From contig NZ_FOGR01000006.1 in the NCBI RefSeq assembly GCF_900111275.1, forward strand, positions 1 to 64,000: DNA of 64,000 nt. The letters are read 5' to 3'. This document shows positions 49,615-64,000 of the stretch, piece after piece. Every line of letters starts with the position of its first letter. Position 1 is the first letter of the stretch. The stretch is from Rhizobium sp. NFR03 (GTDB lineage: Bacteria; Pseudomonadota; Alphaproteobacteria; Rhizobiales; Rhizobiaceae). Under the pieces are notes generated by a model. The model was not told where the DNA came from. It saw nothing but the letters and a program-made list of their open reading frames with translations, and did no database searches. Made by a program: the position numbers and the translations under genes.

Positions 49615-50394
49615 ATGGTTGAACTTGCACTTCCCAAGAACTCGCAGATGACCGAAGGCAAGGTGTGGCCGAAGCCCGCCGGCGCCACCAACACCCGCGA
49701 ATTCCGCGTCTATCGCTGGAGCCCCGATGACGGCAAGAACCCGTCGATCGATACCTTCTTCATCGATATCGACGATTGCGGCCCGATGGTTCTCGATGCA
49801 TTGCTCTACATCAAGAACAAGATCGATCCGACGCTGACGTTGCGCCGCTCCTGTCGCGAGGGCATCTGCGGATCCTGCGCGATGAACATCGACGGCACCA
49901 ACACGCTGGCCTGCACCAAGGGCATGGATGACGTGAAGGGCACGGTAAAGGTCTATCCCCTGCCGCATATGCCGGTCGTCAAGGATCTCGTGCCGGACCT
50001 CACGAACTTCTACGCCCAGCACCGCTCGATCGAGCCCTGGCTCAAGACGGTCTCGCCCGCTCCGGCCAAGGAGTGGAAGCAGAGCCACGACGATCGCGCC
50101 AAGCTCGACGGTCTCTACGAGTGCATCCTCTGCGCCTGCTGCTCGGCCTCGTGCCCGAGCTACTGGTGGAACGGCGATCGCTATCTCGGCCCGGCCGTCC
50201 TTCTCCAGGCCTATCGCTGGCTGATCGACAGCCGCGACGAAGCGAAGGGCGAGCGTCTGGACAATCTGGAAGATCCCTTCCGCCTCTATCGCTGCCACAC
50301 CATCATGAATTGCGCGCAGACCTGTCCCAAGGGCCTCAACCCTGCCAAGGCAATCGGCGAGATCAAGAAAATGATGGTCGAGCGTCGCGTCTGA
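49615..50394 (+). CDS. sdhB: Succinate dehydrogenase iron-sulfur subunit
   Basis: 259 residues with the [2Fe-2S] site CREGICGSC, the [4Fe-4S] site [13 protein letters not shown] and the [3Fe-4S] region ending [15 protein letters not shown]. Carries electrons from SdhA to the SdhCD quinone site. Last gene of the operon, followed by a 10-bp perfect stem-loop at 50410. Confidence 0.98.
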
Positions 50395-50409
50395 GCCATA
50401 TTTTTACGG

Positions 50410-50435
50410 GAGGAAACGCGGATCGGCGTTTCCTC
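50410..50435 (+). terminator. Stem-loop after sdhB
   Basis: Perfect 10-bp arms GAGGAAACGC (50410-50419) and GCGTTTCCTC (50426-50435), 6-nt loop, 15 bases after the sdhB stop. No T-run follows, so it may work as a 3'-end stabiliser as well as or instead of a terminator. Confidence 0.55.
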
Positions 50436-50475
50436 ACCGCCACAAGGCTGTAGGAAAGAACGTTTTTCAACAACC

Positions 50476-50491
50476 TTAAAGGTCGATTAAC
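50476..50491. promoter_or_regulatory. CtrA-like box upstream of the Omp19-like gene
   Basis: TTAA (50476-50479), AGGTCGA, TTAAC (50487-50491): full agreement with the CtrA consensus TTAA-N7-TTAAC. It is about 64 bases before the ATG at 50555. Confidence 0.5.
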
Positions 50492-50554
50492 CTTAATCCG
50501 GCCTATATCTGTCTCGAACGTTCATTTTTCATGCGAGACGACCGGGAGTTCGAA

Positions 50555-51103
50555 ATGCGGGCATATCATGTTGCGGCGGGTCTAGCGGCGGTGCTGGCCC
50601 TTTCGGGATGCCAGCGCACGTCAGTGGGCGCTTTCGATCAGCGTGACATGGGAGGCCCTGCCCCGTTGCAGGCGCAGCCCGTTCCCTCCGTTTCCGGCGG
50701 CTCCCTGCCACCTCCGACGAGCGGTGACACATCTCAGTTCCCCGCAGCACCTGTTAACCAGACGGCAGCACTCGGCGGCGCGCAGGTTCCCCCCGGTGCT
50801 CCGGCAGTTCCTGCAGCCTCGCTCGACGTGACGAAGGAATCCATGGTCGGCAACTGGCGCGTCGCCAATGGCGGCAGCTCCTGCGACATGTTCCTGACGC
50901 TGACCAATCTCGGCTCCGGCTCACGCGGCGGCACCCGCGGTTGCGCAGGCGAGCTGACGCAGATGGGTTCGTGGGAAGTGGCCGGCAAGCAGGTCGTCCT
51001 CAAGGACCGCAGCGGCAATGCGCTTGCCCGCCTCTACAAGACAGCCGATTCGCGCTATGACGGCCAGACGAACGGCGGACAGCCCGTCAGCCTGAGCCGC
51101 TGA
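50555..51103 (+). CDS. omp19: Inh/Omp19-family outer-membrane lipoprotein
   Basis: 182 residues from ATG 50555 (GGGAG upstream). Signal peptide with lipobox LSGC (Cys about residue 19), a Pro/Gln/Gly-rich linker (about 25-90), and a C-terminal AprI/Inh-type domain (about 95-180) with [20 protein letters not shown] and [15 protein letters not shown], two cysteines likely forming the family disulfide. Brucella Omp19, a protease inhibitor and surface lipoprotein, has this architecture. The gene carries its own promoter region with a CtrA-like box. Confidence 0.87.
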
Positions 51104-51207
51104 TTCCCAAGCGGTCGAAGCGGTTTGATCAAAAGCCGTATCGACTTGCGGCGATTTCCAGCGCCCGGCACCGGCCGGGCTTCTTCTGACGGCCAGGAAG
51201 GCTGCGC

Positions 51208-52362
51208 GTGCCAAACGCCGAGAACACCATCTCCAGACGCCTTGAGGCTCGCATTGCCAGCGGCGACATGCGCCGCGATCCGGCGCAGCTTGCCATTGCC
51301 GCCCGCCTCGACCGGCTTTCGACGGAGCTTGCCGCCAGTCGCGCCAATCGCAAGTCGAATGCGCTTGGCTGGTTGTTTGCCGCAAAGCGTGATCAGCGTC
51401 CACCGATCAAGGGCCTGTATCTCTATGGCGGCGTCGGGCGCGGCAAGACCATGCTCATGGATCTCTTTTTCGAGACCGTGCCGATCGAGCGCAAGCGGCG
51501 CGCGCATTTTCACGAGTTCATGGCCGAGGTGCAGGATCGCATTTTCAAGCATCGGCAGAAGCTGAAGAACGGCGAGACGAAGGAGGCGGACCCCATGCCG
51601 CCTGTTGCAGCCGATATCTATGCGGAAGCCCGTCTCCTCTGCTTCGACGAGTTCTCGGTGACCGACATTGCGGATGCCATGATCCTGTCGCGCCTCTTCG
51701 GCGAGCTTTTCAAGCGGGGCTGCGTGCTGGTCGCCACGTCGAATGTCGAGCCCCGCGATCTCTATCGCGACGGGCTCAACCGCTCGCTCTTCCTGCCCTT
51801 CGTGGATCTCCTGCGCGCTCATGCCGAGGTCGTGCCGCTCGACACGCAGACCGACTATCGCCTTGAGAAGACCAGCGGCCTGCCCGTATGGTCCTCGCCG
51901 CTCGATGACGCCGCGCGTGACGCACTCGATACATCCTGGGCGAAGGCAACTGCGGGGCTGCAACCCGCACCAGCCGATCTCACCTTCAAGGGCCGGACGA
52001 TCCACGTGCCGTTGGCTGCCGGCGACTGCGCGCGGTTCTCCTTCGCCGATCTTTGTGCCCGTCCCCTCGGCGCAACCGACTATCTCACCATTCTGTCGCA
52101 TTACCGTGTCATCTTCATTGATGACATCCCGCTGCTCGATCCTGAACGGCGCAACGAAACCAAGCGCTTCATCATGCTGGTCGATACGATTTACGATCAG
52201 GGTGCGCGGCTGTTCGCATCGGCTGCGGCACGCCCCGAAGACCTTTTGACCGTCAAGCGCGGAACCGAAGGATTCGAGTTCGACCGGACCGTTTCCCGGC
52301 TGATCGAACTGCAAAGCAGCGAATATGCCGGTACGCATGCTGCAAATGCGAAGAATTCGTGA
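51208..52362 (+). CDS. zapE: Cell division ATPase ZapE (AFG1-like)
   Basis: 384 residues from GTG 51208 (CAGGAAGG upstream). P-loop GGVGRGKTMLMDLFF, Walker B LLCFDEFSV, sensor-region ATSNVEPRDLYRDGL and the C-terminal VIFIDDIPLL. ZapE is an ATPase acting at the division site in E. coli, and the mitochondrial homologue AFG1/LACE1 works in protein quality control. It lies directly upstream of mdh, as in many alphaproteobacteria. Confidence 0.93.
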   Translation: MPNAENTISRRLEARIASGDMRRDPAQLAIAARLDRLSTELAASRANRKSNALGWLFAAKRDQRPPIKGLYLYGGVGRGKTMLMDLFFETVPIERKRRAHFHEFMAEVQDRIFKHRQKLKNGETKEADPMPPVAADIYAEARLLCFDEFSVTDIADAMILSRLFGELFKRGCVLVATSNVEPRDLYRDGLNRSLFLPFVDLLRAHAEVVPLDTQTDYRLEKTSGLPVWSSPLDDAARDALDTSWAKATAGLQPAPADLTFKGRTIHVPLAAGDCARFSFADLCARPLGATDYLTILSHYRVIFIDDIPLLDPERRNETKRFIMLVDTIYDQGARLFASAAARPEDLLTVKRGTEGFEFDRTVSRLIELQSSEYAGTHAANAKNS

Positions 52363-52367
52363 CCGAA

Positions 52368-52389
52368 TATCTTACGTTGACGTAAGATA
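52368..52389. promoter_or_regulatory. Perfect 22-bp palindrome upstream of mdh
   Basis: TATCTTACGT (52368-52377), TG, ACGTAAGATA (52380-52389): perfect 10-bp arms with a 2-bp centre, 6 bases after the zapE stop and 161 bases before the mdh ATG. The short centre disfavours an RNA hairpin and favours a dimeric repressor operator. It also contains TTGACG, a good -35 hexamer, at 52377-52382. Confidence 0.55.
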
Positions 52390-52409
52390 ATAATGATCTA
52401 AACGATTGA

Positions 52410-53513
<1,104 letters not shown>

Positions 53514-53543
53514 TCTTTTCCGACATCAGACAGGAATATTTCC

Positions 53544-54740
<1,197 letters not shown>

Positions 54741-54744
54741 TCAC

Positions 54745-55122
54745 ATGAGCGATGCGAAAAAGACGGTCAATCGCCAGTCCTTCGGACCGAACGAGACCGA
54801 CATCAACCTGTGCTACTTCGTTTGCTGGGACACCACGCCGGACCTCGACGACGAGGCCGCCGATCGCTGGGCCCATTTCACGCATGACGAAGATGCCGTC
54901 GAGTTCTTCAAGCTGAAGTCGAAGGACGAAACGCTGTACGTCTGGAAGGGCGAGCTGGGCATCTCGACAGCCGACAAGCAGTTCGACTGGTTCCACACGC
55001 ACTGGTCCAAGAACCTGAACAGCCATCTTGGTGAGAAGTCGATCGCCGGCAAGGGTTACCGCTGGTCCAACGACGCTTTCGAAGAATTTGATTCCCTCGA
55101 ATTCGAGGAAGAGGAAAACTGA
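54745..55122 (+). CDS. Unrecognised 125-residue protein between sucC and sucD
   Basis: It starts [19 protein letters not shown] at ATG 54745, four bases after the sucC stop with AAGGGTG upstream, and ends three bases before the sucD ATG. It is soluble, has no membrane segment or signal peptide, contains six tryptophans and two cysteines (LCYFVCWD), and ends in a strongly acidic tail ([13 protein letters not shown]). Codon use and GC look like the neighbours, so it does not appear recently acquired. The tight spacing predicts production stoichiometric with SucC and SucD. No family recognised; a role as assembly or regulatory partner of succinyl-CoA synthetase is speculation. Confidence 0.82.
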
Positions 55123-55125
55123 TCC

Positions 55126-56028
55126 ATGTCCATTCTCATCAATAAAGACACCAAGATCCTCGTTCAGGGTCTGACGGGCAAGACCGGCACGTTCCACACC
55201 GAGCAGGCGCTCGCCTATCATGGCACGCAGATGGTCGGCGGCATCAACCCGAAGAAGGGTGGCGAGACCTGGGAAGGCTCCAAGGGCGAAAAGCTGCCGA
55301 TCTTCGCAACCGTTGCCGAGGGCAAGGAACAGACCGGCGCCGACGCGTCCGTCATCTACGTTCCCCCGGCCGGCGCCGCTGCCGCCATCATCGAGGCGAT
55401 CGAAGCGGAAATCCCGCTCATCGTCTGCATCACCGAAGGCATTCCGGTTGCCGATATGGTCAAGGTCAAGGCGCGTCTCGATGCGTCGAAGTCCCGCCTC
55501 ATCGGCCCGAACTGCCCCGGCGTCATGACGCCGAACGAGTGCAAGATCGGCATCATGCCGGGCAACATCTTCAAGAAGGGCTCCGTCGGCGTTCTCTCGC
55601 GTTCGGGCACGCTCACCTATGAAGCCGTGTTCCAGACCACGAACGAAGGCCTCGGCCAGACGACCGCTGTCGGCATCGGCGGCGACCCGGTCAAGGGCAC
55701 CGAATTCATCGACGTGCTGGAAATGTTCCTGGCCGACGACGAGACCAAGTCCATCATCATGATCGGCGAAATCGGCGGCTCCGCCGAAGAAGAAGCCGCG
55801 CAGTTCCTGATGGACGAAGCCAAGCGTGGCCGCAAAAAGCCGATGGTCGGCTTCATCGCCGGTCGCACGGCACCTCCCGGCCGCACTATGGGCCATGCAG
55901 GCGCCGTGATCTCCGGCGGCAAGGGTGGCGCGGAAGACAAGATCGCCGCCATGGAACAGGCCGGCATCCGTGTTTCGCCCTCCCCGGCCCGCCTCGGCAA
56001 GACGCTGGTGGAAGTCCTCAAGGGCTGA
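55126..56028 (+). CDS. sucD: Succinyl-CoA synthetase alpha subunit
   Basis: 300 residues: CoA-binding Rossmann domain ([16 protein letters not shown]) and ligase domain with the phosphohistidine in [39 protein letters not shown] is conserved. Its translation start (GAGGAAAA upstream) is 3 bp after the unknown ORF. A GC-rich hairpin follows 10 bp after its stop. Confidence 0.98.
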
Positions 56029-56037
56029 TGCAACTTT

Positions 56038-56072
56038 AAGGGACGGCCGGCCATTGGCGCCAGCCGTCCCTT
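56038..56072 (+). terminator. Hairpin between sucD and sucA
   Basis: Ten-base arms AAGGGACGGC (56038-56047) and GCCGTCCCTT (56063-56072). Only two Ts follow, so it is probably a partial terminator or processing site separating sucCD from sucAB expression. Confidence 0.55.
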
Positions 56073-56250
56073 GCCCCATCTAAGTGAAGTCGGCAATCGA
56101 AGCCTCGCGCTTGGGTCCTGCCAAACAAATGACACGCATACGGCCGTATTGGATGGCCGTCGCAAAGTCGGCCCGGGATGGCACGTCCGCATATCCCAGA
56201 GGCCGCATCCAACAAGTCAGGAGGCGGACGGACAGGTCCGCGATAAAACC

Positions 56251-59247
<2,997 letters not shown>

Positions 59248-59486
59248 CGCGTCGATATGGGCATCCTCTCCACCACCTCGCACCAGATCGGTCGGACCGT
59301 TGCATCGGCAGCGGTTTCGACAGCTCTGGCGAGGTGGCTGGACTGTCAGCCCGATACCGGCCTTTCTCATGGTCGGTCCCGTGGGCGGAACGCCGTTCCG
59401 CCGCGGTCTGCTTCCTCATCTATTCCCTTTTCAGGCGCGACTGACCGGTCCGGCAGCAACGCCCGCAACATCAGGACGTTTTAACA

Positions 59487-60728
59487 ATGGCAACCGAAAT
59501 CCGCGTGCCCACCCTGGGTGAATCCGTCAGCGAAGCCACGATCGGCACCTGGTTCAAGAAGGTCGGCGACACCGTGAACGCCGACGAGCCCCTGCTGGAA
59601 CTCGAAACCGACAAGGTTACGATCGAAGTCCCGGCACCGGCCTCCGGCACGCTGTCGGAAATCGTTGCCAATGAAGGCGAAACGGTCGGTCTGGGTGCGC
59701 TTCTCGGTCAGATCGCCGAAGGTGCGGGCGCTGCCGCCGCTCCAGCTGCAAAGCCTGCCGAAGCCACTGCCCCTGCCGCGGACAAGACGGCTGCCGAGGC
59801 GCCTGCCGCTTCGCAGTCCGCCCCCTCCTCCATGCCGCCCGCGCCGGCTGCCGCCAAGATGCTGGCTGAAAACAATGTTTCCGCCGATGACATCGACGGC
59901 TCCGGCAAGCGTGGCCAGGTCCTCAAGGGCGACGTGATCGCCGCCGTCAACCGTGGCCTCCAGACGCCGGCAGCGCCTGCCGAACAGGCCAAGGCTCCTG
60001 CTCGCGGCCCTTCCAACGCAGCAGACGCTCCGCGCGAAGAGCGCGTGAAGATGACGCGCCTGCGTCAGACGATCGCCAAGCGCCTCAAGGACGCCCAGAA
60101 CACGGCCGCCATGCTGACCACCTACAACGAGGTGGACATGAAGGCGGTCATGGATCTGCGCACCAAGTACAAGGACGTCTTCGAAAAGAAGCATGGCGTG
60201 AAGCTCGGCTTCATGGGCTTCTTCACCAAGGCCGTGACGCACGCGCTGAAGGAACTGCCGGCCGTCAACGCCGAGATCGACGGCACGGATCTGGTCTACA
60301 AGAACTTCTGCCACGTCGGCATGGCCGTCGGCACCGACAAGGGCCTCGTCGTCCCGGTCATCCGCGATGCCGACCAGATGTCGATCGCCCAGATCGAGAA
60401 GGAACTCGGCCGCCTTGCCAAGGCTGCCCGTGACGGCTCGCTGTCGATGGCCGACATGCAGGGCGGCACCTTCACCATCACCAATGGCGGCGTCTACGGC
60501 TCGCTGATGTCCTCGCCGATCCTCAACGCACCGCAGTCCGGCATTCTCGGCATGCACAAGATCCAGGATCGCCCGGTCGTCGTCGGCGGCCAGATCGTTA
60601 TCCGCCCGATGATGTATCTCGCGCTCTCCTACGATCACCGCATCGTTGACGGCAAGGAAGCCGTGACCTTCCTCGTCCGCGTCAAGGAAAGCCTCGAAGA
60701 TCCCGAACGTCTCGTTCTCGACCTCTGA
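59487..60728 (+). CDS. sucB: Dihydrolipoamide succinyltransferase (E2)
   Basis: 413 residues: one lipoyl domain (1-77, lipoylated Lys in [15 protein letters not shown]), an Ala/Pro-rich linker, a peripheral subunit-binding domain (about 118-155, [19 protein letters not shown]), a second linker, and the acyltransferase core with [12 protein letters not shown] (catalytic His and Asp). The 239-bp spacer after sucA holds an 8-bp perfect hairpin (GGCGGAAC-GCC-GTTCCGCC, 59384-59402). Confidence 0.97.
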
Positions 60729-60739
60729 GACTGAATAAC

Positions 60740-60767
60740 GAGGCCTGCCCGGCAAGGGCGGGCCTTC
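60740..60767 (+). terminator. Hairpin after sucB
   Basis: Arms AGGCCTGCCC (60741-60750) and GGGCGGGCCT (60756-60765), 9 of 10 paired, 5-nt loop, followed by TTCG. Weak T-tract, so termination is probably partial. Confidence 0.55.
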
Positions 60768-60788
60768 GCCTGACTGAGAGATCCCCTC

Positions 60789-61202
60789 ATGGAACCGACC
60801 GTCATCGCTGCCTCGCCCTTTCCGGCGCTTGTCGCCTGGAGCGTGGTATTGCTCGTTGTGCAGATCTGCCTCCAGGGCATGCTGGCGACGCGCGAACTCG
60901 GGTCCAGCTGGAACGCCGGCCCGCGTGATGGCGACAAACAGCCGGAAGGCGTGGTTGCAGGCCGCGCCGGACGGGCGTCCAAAAATCTCCAGGAAACCTA
61001 TCCGGCCTTCGTTGGTCTGGCGCTCGGTCTCGCCATTGCCGGCGATCCCTCCGGCTGGGGGCTGATTGGCGCCTGGATCTGGTTTGCCTGCCGCATCGTC
61101 TATGTTCCCCTTTACCTCGCAGGCATCCCCTACATCCGTTCGCTCGTCTGGCTCGGCTCGCTGGCGGGCCTGATCGTGATGGGGCTGGTCCTGATCTTCT
61201 GA
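60789..61202 (+). CDS. MAPEG family membrane protein
   Basis: 137 residues with four hydrophobic segments (about 8-30, 72-88, 90-108, 115-136) and the MAPEG-type ASKNLQETYPAFVGLALGLAIAG motif (FLQTFP-like). The superfamily includes glutathione-linked membrane enzymes; bacterial members of this branch have no fixed role. It sits between sucB and lpd with a LysE gene, a position that suggests co-transcription with the dehydrogenase genes but not shared function. Confidence 0.85.
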   Translation: MEPTVIAASPFPALVAWSVVLLVVQICLQGMLATRELGSSWNAGPRDGDKQPEGVVAGRAGRASKNLQETYPAFVGLALGLAIAGDPSGWGLIGAWIWFACRIVYVPLYLAGIPYIRSLVWLGSLAGLIVMGLVLIF

Positions 61203-61221
61203 CGTCAAGCGATCACCGGAG

Positions 61222-61884
61222 ATGATGATGGATATGTCCCTGCACCCCTATCTGCTCGAACTCGCCTCGCTGATGGCGGTGTTCTTCTTCGGGATCATCT
61301 CGCCCGGAGCGGATTTTGCGATGGTCATGCGCCAGTCGATCGTCAACGGTCGCCGTTCGGCGATTTTGACCTCGTTCGGCGTCGGCACGGCGCTGATGGT
61401 GCACGTCACCTATACCATCCTAGGACTCGGCCTGATCATTTCGCAGTCGATCACGCTCTTCAACATCATCAAATGGTGCGGTGTCGCCTACCTCGTCTAT
61501 ATCGGCATCAAGGCGCTGCGCTCGAAGCCGGCAGCCGCCGCCGCGGACGGAGCGCCTGTGCAGGTTACACAACGCGAGCCGCAATCTGCTCTCAAAGCCT
61601 TCGGTCTGGGCTTCGCCGCCAACGCTCTGAACCCGAAGCCGGTCTTCTTCTTTCTATCGATCTTCTCCACGGTCGTGAGCCTGCAGACGCCCGTCGCGGT
61701 CAAGTTCGGCTACGGCCTCGTCATGGCGGGCTGCCTCATCCTCTGGTTCGTGGGCGTCAGCCTGTTCATGACGACGCCCGCCATGCGCTTGCGCTTCACC
61801 CGAATCAGCCATTGGATCGACCGCGCCAGCGGCATGGTCTTCATCGCGCTCGGGCTCAAACTTGCAACCGAGAAGGCAGCGTAA
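61222..61884 (+). CDS. LysE/RhtB family amino-acid exporter
   Basis: 220 residues with six membrane segments. The family motif GIISPGADFAMVMRQSIVNGRRSAILTS near the N-terminus is clear, along with GFAANALNPKPVFFFLSIF. Members export lysine, homoserine, threonine or similar compounds; the substrate is not predictable here. A GGAG ribosome site precedes ATG 61222 (three in-frame ATGs follow in the first five codons). Confidence 0.9.
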   Translation: MMMDMSLHPYLLELASLMAVFFFGIISPGADFAMVMRQSIVNGRRSAILTSFGVGTALMVHVTYTILGLGLIISQSITLFNIIKWCGVAYLVYIGIKALRSKPAAAAADGAPVQVTQREPQSALKAFGLGFAANALNPKPVFFFLSIFSTVVSLQTPVAVKFGYGLVMAGCLILWFVGVSLFMTTPAMRLRFTRISHWIDRASGMVFIALGLKLATEKAA

Positions 61885-61985
61885 ACCCGGCTGGCTTGCT
61901 CGACATTCACATCCGGCAGCTGCCAAGCGGCAGCCAACGTCAACATCGGCAGTCGGGACAGGCTGCGCACGGAAGGAAAGTATTC

Positions 61986-63389
61986 ATGGCTTATGACGTC
62001 GTTGTTATCGGAACCGGCCCCGGCGGCTATGTAGCCGCCATCAAGGCAGCCCAGCTCGGCCTGAAGGTCGCCGTTATCGAGAAGCGCGCCACCTATGGCG
62101 GTACCTGCCTCAACATCGGCTGCATCCCCTCCAAGGCCCTGTTGCATGCATCCGAGATGTTCCACGCCGCCGGCCATATGGACAGCCTCGGCATCGAGAT
62201 CGAGGCACCGCGCCTCAACCTGCCGAAGATGATGGAGCACAAGGACGCGACCGTAAAGTCGAACGTCGAAGGCGTGGCCTTCCTCTTCAAGAAGAACAAG
62301 ATCGACGCCATCCAGGGTACAGGCCGCATCGCCGGTGCCGGAAAGGTCGTTGTTACCAATGATGCCGGCGAGGAGCAGACGGTCGAAACGAAGAACATCG
62401 TGATCGCGACCGGCTCCGACGTTGCCGGCATCCCCGGCGTCCCTGTCGAGATCGACGAGACCGTCATCGTCTCCTCCACGGGCGGCATCGCTCTTGAAAA
62501 AGTGCCCGGCACCATGGTTGTCGTCGGCGGCGGCGTCATCGGCCTCGAGCTCGGCTCGGTCTGGGCCCGCCTCGGCGCACAGGTCACCGTTGTCGAATAT
62601 CTCGACAACATCCTCGGCGGCATGGACGGCGAAGTCTCCAAGCAGTTCCAGCGCATTCTCGCCAAGCAGGGCATCACCTTCAACCTCGGCGCCAAGGTCA
62701 CAGGCGTTGCGCGCGAGGGCGACGGCGCAATCGTAACCTTCGAGCCGGTCAAGGGCGGGGAAGCCCAGACGATTTCCGCCGACGTAGTTCTCGTGGCGAC
62801 AGGCCGCAAGCCATACACGGCGGGCCTCGGTCTCGAAGAAGCCGGCGTCGCGCTCGACAATCGCGGCCGCGTCGAGATTGACGGCCACTACAAGACGAAT
62901 GTCGATGGCATCTACGCCATCGGCGATGTCGTGCGCGGCCCGATGCTCGCCCACAAGGCAGAAGACGAAGGCGTGGCGCTGGCCGAAATCCTTGCCGGTC
63001 AGGCAGGACACGTGAACTATGACGTCATTCCCGGCGTCGTCTACACCCAGCCGGAAGTCGCCTCCGTCGGCAAGACAGAGGAAGAGCTGAAGAGCGCCGG
63101 CATTGCCTACAAGGTCGGCAAGTTCCCCTTCACCGCCAATGGTCGCGCCCGCGCGATGCAGGCCGTCGACGGCTTCGTGAAGATCCTTGCGGACAAAGAG
63201 ACGGATCGCGTTCTCGGCGGCCACATCATCGGCTTCGGCGCTGGCGAAATGATCCACGAAATCGCCGTCCTCATGGAATTCGGCGGCTCCTCGGAAGATC
63301 TCGGCCGCACCTGCCACGCCCACCCGACCATGTCGGAAGCCGTCAAGGAAGCCGCCCTTGCCACCTTCTTCAAGCCGATCCATATGTAA
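61986..63389 (+). CDS. lpdA: Dihydrolipoyl dehydrogenase (E3)
   Basis: 467 residues from ATG 61986 (GGAAAG upstream). FAD motif VVVIGTGPGGYVAAIKAA, redox disulfide GGTCLNIGCIPSKALL, NAD motif MVVVGGGVIGLELGSVWARLG, and the C-terminal active-site HAHPTMSE. Reoxidises the lipoyl groups of SucB. Genomic linkage to sucAB suggests this is the 2-oxoglutarate dehydrogenase copy. Confidence 0.97.
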   Translation: MAYDVVVIGTGPGGYVAAIKAAQLGLKVAVIEKRATYGGTCLNIGCIPSKALLHASEMFHAAGHMDSLGIEIEAPRLNLPKMMEHKDATVKSNVEGVAFLFKKNKIDAIQGTGRIAGAGKVVVTNDAGEEQTVETKNIVIATGSDVAGIPGVPVEIDETVIVSSTGGIALEKVPGTMVVVGGGVIGLELGSVWARLGAQVTVVEYLDNILGGMDGEVSKQFQRILAKQGITFNLGAKVTGVAREGDGAIVTFEPVKGGEAQTISADVVLVATGRKPYTAGLGLEEAGVALDNRGRVEIDGHYKTNVDGIYAIGDVVRGPMLAHKAEDEGVALAEILAGQAGHVNYDVIPGVVYTQPEVASVGKTEEELKSAGIAYKVGKFPFTANGRARAMQAVDGFVKILADKETDRVLGGHIIGFGAGEMIHEIAVLMEFGGSSEDLGRTCHAHPTMSEAVKEAALATFFKPIHM

Positions 63390-63442
63390 GAAACGGCCTG
63401 CGGCAATCTGCCGATTGCCATGCAGCACGAGACGAAGAATAT

Positions 63443-63471
63443 GAGCGGTACCTTCTGAAAGGATACCGCTC
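63443..63471 (+). promoter_or_regulatory. Stem-loop sequestering the ribosome site of the DUF2867 gene
   Basis: GAGCGGTACCTT (63443-63454) pairs with AAGG-A-TACCGCTC (63459-63471; one bulged A), leaving a 4-nt loop. The ribosome site GAAAGGA (63457-63463) is inside the stem and the ATG follows at 63472. Either a translation-control hairpin or the 3' end of the lpd transcript. Confidence 0.5.
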
Positions 63472-63948
63472 ATGCGTCCCCAAGAGAAATCTGTTGTCTT
63501 GCCTCATGGAGCCCTGCCGAACGCAGATTGGGCAGACTGCTGGGAAATCAACGATGCAATTGCGTTTCTGACAGCATTCGAGGCCGCGGAAATTGCCTTG
63601 ATGCAATCACCGCTGTGGGTCCGTGCGCTGATGAAGGCGAGGGATATCGTGGTTAGTCCCCTCGGCCTTAAGACCTCAAGGAGTTTTTCCGACGAGCGAA
63701 AGATCGGTCTCTTTCCGATCCTCTCCGAGACCCGTGACCAGATTGTCCTCGGCTTTGACGATCGTCATCTCGATTTCAGAATCATCGTAGACGTAGCGGC
63801 GATTGATGACGTGCGGCAGTGTGTCCGGATAACGACGCTCGTCCATCGCAAAATTTTCTTCGGCAAACTCTACCTCGCTGCCATCGAGCCATTTCACCGG
63901 CTCATCGTCGCAAGTGCGCTGGGACGCTTCCACCGCCTTCCAAGATAA
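63472..63948 (+). CDS. DUF2867 domain protein
   Basis: 158 residues; begins MRPQEKSVVLPHGALPNADW, then ADCWEI and a central LFPILSETRDQIVLGFDDRHLDFRI strand pair, matching DUF2867, a family without known activity. Soluble, no signal peptide. The start codon directly abuts a stem-loop. Last complete gene in the window; the remaining 52 bases hold no recognisable feature. Confidence 0.75.
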   Translation: MRPQEKSVVLPHGALPNADWADCWEINDAIAFLTAFEAAEIALMQSPLWVRALMKARDIVVSPLGLKTSRSFSDERKIGLFPILSETRDQIVLGFDDRHLDFRIIVDVAAIDDVRQCVRITTLVHRKIFFGKLYLAAIEPFHRLIVASALGRFHRLPR

Positions 63949-64000
63949 CTTCGATGGGCCGCTTGGGCCTCTTTAAGACGAGGTAGAGGCGAAGGCATTG

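Follow-up and report, generated by a model that had tools for sequence, protein, structure and literature searches.

Genomic neighbourhood is a standard guide to gene function, and a gene wedged between the genes for two subunits of one complex seems the strongest case for it. Such a gene was found in Rhizobium sp. NFR03, in the 64,000 nucleotide stretch of DNA analyzed here (termed the window), where an unnamed reading frame separates sucC from sucD, encoding the beta and the alpha subunit of succinyl-CoA synthetase. A sequence-only reading of this DNA had suggested that the encoded protein is a partner, chaperone or regulator of SucCD. Does the location support this? The mdh-sucC-sucD-sucA-sucB row spans from approximately 52.5 to 60.7 kb of the window (Table 1). 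SucC and SucD scored above the cut-offs of their NCBIfam equivalogs, and three other reading frames of the row are presumably mdh, sucA, and sucB.

The inserted reading frame was correctly described as encoding 125 amino acids, including six tryptophans, and as being separated by four nucleotides from the sucC stop codon and by three nucleotides from the sucD ATG. The protein has a calculated pI of 4.5 and looks soluble. An in-frame GTG at position 54733 would add four residues to the protein; the ATG at 54745 is the likely start since the open frame is only 126 amino acids long in the relative G004. The sequence AAGG is located in the final sucC codons about 12 nucleotides upstream of the inserted ATG in all 16 copies of the gene described below, and these codons (AAGGGT in the window) may provide its ribosome site. 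GAGG is found in the final codons of the inserted reading frame, about 11 nucleotides upstream of sucD. Both ribosome sites had been called good; they are plausible but not strong.

Table 1. Features of the mdh-sucCDAB row in the window.
Feature	Position	Strand	Basis
mdh, first gene of the row	52551..53513	+	Open reading frame, tblastn query; name presumed
sucC, succinyl-CoA synthetase beta subunit, 398 aa	53544..54740	+	NCBIfam NF001913, E 1.5e-168
Inserted gene, 125 aa, unnamed family	54745..55122	+	Homologues and selection; no match in Pfam, NCBIfam or PADLOC
GAGGAAGAGGAA, codons of the EEEE tail; also resembles the sucD Shine-Dalgarno region	55105..55116	+	Sequence; putative function
sucD, succinyl-CoA synthetase alpha subunit, 300 aa	55126..56028	+	NCBIfam NF004230, E 2.5e-137
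sucA	56251..59247	+	Open reading frame, tblastn query; name presumed
sucB	59487..60728	+	Open reading frame, tblastn query; name presumed

The gene is present in one copy in its own 5.4 Mb genome, which has Rhizobium sp. PP-CC-3A-592 and Ferranicluibacter rubi, from a Rhizobiaceae genus, as its relatives in a named collection. A profile search of 394 genomes of the family identified clear copies in seven, i.e., in every genome of the same genus (g1, seven genomes) except G006, and in genome G315 of a second genus (g131); three other matches (E 0.02-0.1, covering 33-59 residues) were left uncounted. Within g131, 10 of 60 genomes carry the gene, G315 included. The own genome was the sole match in a sample of 385 genomes of the class, and it was accompanied by two weak matches (E 0.0016 and 0.004, residues 34-80) among 398 genomes of the phylum. 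The one of these that was opened resembles arginyl-tRNA synthetase by eye, and the similarity was judged to be due to chance. Plasmids (best E 8), phages (best E 3) and viral contigs (none confirmed) contained no convincing relative.

Altogether 16 distinct copies were found in two genera of Rhizobiaceae. Every one of them is located between sucC and sucD, and the frame is 125 or 126 amino acids long throughout. Of the 14 genome pairs for which dN/dS was computed, 11 carry the gene in both members; the values were 0.03-0.27 for the inserted gene, compared to 0-0.16 for sucC and sucD. The existence of 15 other copies together with these dN/dS values makes the reading frame more than a chance opening; it is a genuine gene under purifying selection.

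Neither Pfam nor NCBIfam contained a family for the window protein, and Pfam searches with 15 of the 16 copies returned only PF06946, for four members and with a best E of 0.05. PADLOC gave no match for the 15 members scanned, PHROGs gave weak matches (best E 0.0067), and the PDB search gave no trustworthy match. A phmmer similarity to the PARP3 WGR domain (E 0.35) was dropped when a profile of 15 sequences did not reproduce it. The two AlphaFold monomer models, with a mean pLDDT of 51 and 46, were too poor for use.

SucC and SucD were located throughout the family by a joined SucC/SucD query, and with one genome per genus 107 of 109 genera could be measured (all but G119 and G124). Gaps above 300 bp between sucC and sucD were found in 32 of 107 genera, compared to 2 of 102 for mdh/sucC, 5 of 104 for sucD/sucA and 5 of 104 for sucA/sucB (Fisher p of 8e-9, 1e-6, and 1e-6, respectively, calculated as if the genomes were independent, although they are not). 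The sucC/sucD junction is therefore a variable slot, enriched for large gaps over the other junctions of the row at this limit. For gaps above 150 bp the corresponding numbers were 37/107, 8/102, 43/104, and 8/104. Here sucD/sucA, a naturally long junction with a median of 143 bp, exceeds sucC/sucD, and the contrast thus depends on gene-sized gaps (limits of 250-350 bp). The sucA/sucB count leaves out three genomes without a match to the lipoyl domain (G007, G016, and G069) and replaces an earlier one of 18 of 104 gaps above 250 bp, which were mostly missed SucB N-termini.

Insertions at the other junctions occur but are rare. A clear forward reading frame was found in 8 of the 12 control gaps above 300 bp. 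Both mdh/sucC gaps (G064 and G128) and two of the five sucD/sucA gaps (G076 and G128, with one of the two G076 reading frames being cupin-like by eye) are filled by reading frames; one of the five long sucA/sucB gaps (G085) resembles a broken sucA reading frame. In the window itself sucD and sucA are separated by about 220 bp (56029-56250) that contain no clear gene, a spacing that is long in relatives too, and a gene for a LysE/RhtB-like exporter (by eye; 61222-61884) is located between sucB and an lpd-like gene as another extra gene of the row. A small gene that is YciI-like by eye recurs between sucA and sucB in three genera (L115 in G035, L133 in G077, and L143 in G087).

Long gaps at this junction were also found beyond the family. 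In other families of the order, 12 of the 24 measurable genomes (28 sampled) had a sucC/sucD gap above 150 bp; for other orders of the class the number was 4 of 27 genomes with linked genes (38 sampled). Four of these 16 gaps (G046, G051, G054, and G778) carry one of the ten families described next.

The slot is occupied by unrelated genes oriented as the operon, i.e., cupins, VapBC pairs, secreted-looking and membrane proteins, and DUF1579 proteins, with signal peptides and membrane spans called by reading the sequences. Ten families, that of the inserted gene among them, were searched by profile. At least one was found in 34 of the 37 gaps above 150 bp (exceptions G008, G028, and G083), although the only match in G079 was a VapC-like stretch in 259 bp; with extra genomes included, 53 of 76 sucC/sucD gaps contained one of the families and 23 did not. 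All matches were on the operon strand and at sucC/sucD, and none of these ten families, the seeds of which were drawn from sucC/sucD gaps, turned up in the 68 gaps above 150 bp at the remaining junctions. Matches were found in 19 genomes for VapC, 17 for VapB, 13 for cupins, 13 for the secreted-looking families, 9 for a small membrane protein, 3 for DUF1579, and 3 for another membrane protein, and VapBC pairs were found in the slot of 13 sampled genera. Five of ten representatives scanned reached the cut-off of a Pfam family (Cupin_2, PIN, DUF1579, RHH_1, and Nucleotid_trans). The gene finder based on codon scores made no call in many gaps containing known families and was excluded from the counts.

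Some slots hold two to four occupants in series, such as a membrane protein, a cupin, VapB, and VapC in G110; this array (L057) and that of G189 (L072) consist of different occupants and place a VapBC pair inside a TCA operon. Cupin reading frames begin 3-5 nucleotides past the sucC stop codon in G025, G080, G103, G116, and G120. The similar gap size raised the idea that the inserted gene is a diverged form of the 123 amino acid slot cupin, which the profile comparison did not bear out (hhalign probability 0.65%). The hhalign probability was below 1% for the inserted protein against the cupin, DUF1579, and two secreted-looking families, and 1.6% against a fifth slot family.

Slot contents turn over frequently. 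When mapped on a SucC+SucD tree covering 106 genera, occupancy required 27 changes, at least 15 of which were forced by well-supported branches, and shuffled labels required 30.0 changes on average, with 69 of 500 shuffles being as low as 27. Occupancy consequently hardly tracks this tree, which is not a species tree since sucC itself seems to have been transferred. Cupins alone required 8 changes for 8 genera and VapBC 10 for 12.

The same turnover is seen within one genus. Of 57 measured g131 genomes 10 contain the inserted gene, 42 are empty, and 5 have other contents, of 515 bp in G355 and approximately 235 bp in G264, G804, G826, and G839, with a reading frame named only for G264; outside the count are G814 (84% complete, no match) and G805 and G816 (not searched). 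Both sucC and sucD are kept in all 47 measured genomes without the gene, and they nearly abut in the 42 empty genomes as well as in G006. On the SucC tree 8 of the 10 g131 carriers group with the genus of the window (support 98), and the other two with native g131 sequence. The former group also includes G006 and G017, both without the inserted gene. The inserted proteins of g131 are closer to one another, with dN of 0.108 between G315 and G838 compared to 0.296 between G000 and G838. SucC and the inserted gene therefore have partly different histories, which indicates recombination around the slot. In eight g131 genomes (L199-L206) SucC is 93% identical to that of the window, and the identity is 76-78% for sucA fragments and 74-80% for mdh fragments (seven of the eight). 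This points to horizontal replacement of sucC in these genomes.

The acidic tail noted in the sequence-only reading is present, and its codons allow another explanation than one at the protein level. The tail DNA, GAGGAAGAGGAA (GAG GAA GAG GAA), is identical in all 16 copies and sits where the sucD ribosome site is expected. In g131 the stop codon of the insert and the sucD start codon overlap as TAATG. Between the two genera (15 genome pairs, which are not independent) codon choice for shared residues at positions 119-124 agreed in 84 of 90 cases, compared to 55-64% in the five preceding stretches. Restricting the comparison to residues with two codons gave 84/90 in the tail against 374/532, and for glutamate only the numbers were 69/75 and 34/52. 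Within g131 the tail codons were no better conserved (38/42, 0.90) than those of residues 101-118 (101/113, 0.89). In a loose test without shuffled control, a Shine-Dalgarno-like word preceded sucD in 34 of 41 insert-bearing genomes and in 62 of 63 that have no insert; it was missing from seven genomes with inserts. The resemblance of the tail codons to a sucD ribosome site means that the acidic tail need not be a feature of the protein. We infer that a gene occupying the slot generally has to re-form the ribosome site of sucD, and that the acidic tail at least partly reflects this requirement.

Based on these observations we consider the inserted gene, with a probability of about two in three, to be a lineage-specific passenger that occupies an accessory slot in the TCA operon and is coupled to it in translation. 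The gene would probably be co-transcribed with the TCA operon, and the final sucC codons would supply its ribosome site and thereby couple its translation to that of sucC. Its own final codons, encoding the acidic tail, would in turn give sucD a new ribosome site, so that synthesis of the alpha subunit is not switched off. The activity of the protein is most likely not directed at SucCD. What speaks against a passenger is that all 16 copies found lie at sucC/sucD and none elsewhere, whereas a free passenger could sit in other places too. Exchange of the slot among genomes by homologous recombination could account for this exclusive location.

The proposal of the sequence-only reading, a lineage-specific accessory subunit, chaperone or regulator of SucCD that would be made between the beta and the alpha subunit and meet both at assembly, seems unlikely to us. 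It is consistent with the purifying selection, with the conserved ends and acidic tail of the protein, and with all copies lying a few nucleotides from both genes or overlapping sucD at the stop and start codons, and it keeps some probability because the family is found nowhere else. Thus the description as a selected and tightly packed gene holds. The step from location to partnership is not supported, since the junction is a variable slot with unrelated occupants in roughly one third of the sampled genera, making location weak evidence, and unrelated genes such as the cupin reading frames are packed equally tightly. The signal-peptide-like proteins and toxin-antitoxin pairs found there are unlikely partners of SucCD. 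No copy was found in an unrelated context, but 50 of the 60 g131 genomes and G006 lack the gene, and each of these that was measured has both sucC and sucD; the gene is not kept wherever SucCD is present (six of seven genomes in g1 and 10 of 60 in g131). The tail codons, furthermore, are explicable by the sucD ribosome site. Even more doubtful is a scenario in which the sucC/sucD junction is a dedicated accessory slot of the whole order that swaps cassettes by recombination in the sucC and sucD flanks, with some occupants, including the inserted family, tuning succinyl-CoA synthetase, e.g., the beta/alpha ratio or assembly during coupled translation.

A small stress, immunity or anti-phage gene exploiting the constant expression of a TCA operon would fit the patchy presence within one genus and the VapBC pairs occurring in the same slot. 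We find this very improbable given the PADLOC and PHROG results and the lack of a toxin partner adjoining the inserted gene in the slot. That the region is a spacer or regulatory sequence, open by chance and not a protein gene, would agree with the lack of a known family and of a confident fold; the dN/dS values and the frame preserved in every copy leave hardly any room for it, and Rfam gave no match in positions 50000-64000 of the window.

The sucC/sucD junction shows that even a place between two subunits of one complex can be a slot with high turnover, and guilt by association is weak there. This raises the questions of how a central operon can accommodate one insertion after another between subunits that need balanced synthesis, and of whether restoring a ribosome site for sucD is obligatory for an inserted gene. 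Among the matches listed in PMC, no title or abstract opening described the slot.

The mdh-sucCDAB row is a standard operon of rhizobia, and the window has the same gene order and flanks, differing by the extra gene between sucC and sucD. VapBC, Cupin_2, and DUF1579 proteins (PF01850, PF07883, and PF07617) use the same slot in related genera; the cupin and DUF1579 proteins have no profile relation to the inserted protein. The locus also resembles genomic hitch-hiking (Rogozin et al., 2002, as cited in PMC2234087), in which genes without apparent functional relation lie within a conserved row, perhaps for steady expression. It differs from hitch-hiking in that the junction splits two subunits of one complex and that its content varies by genus.
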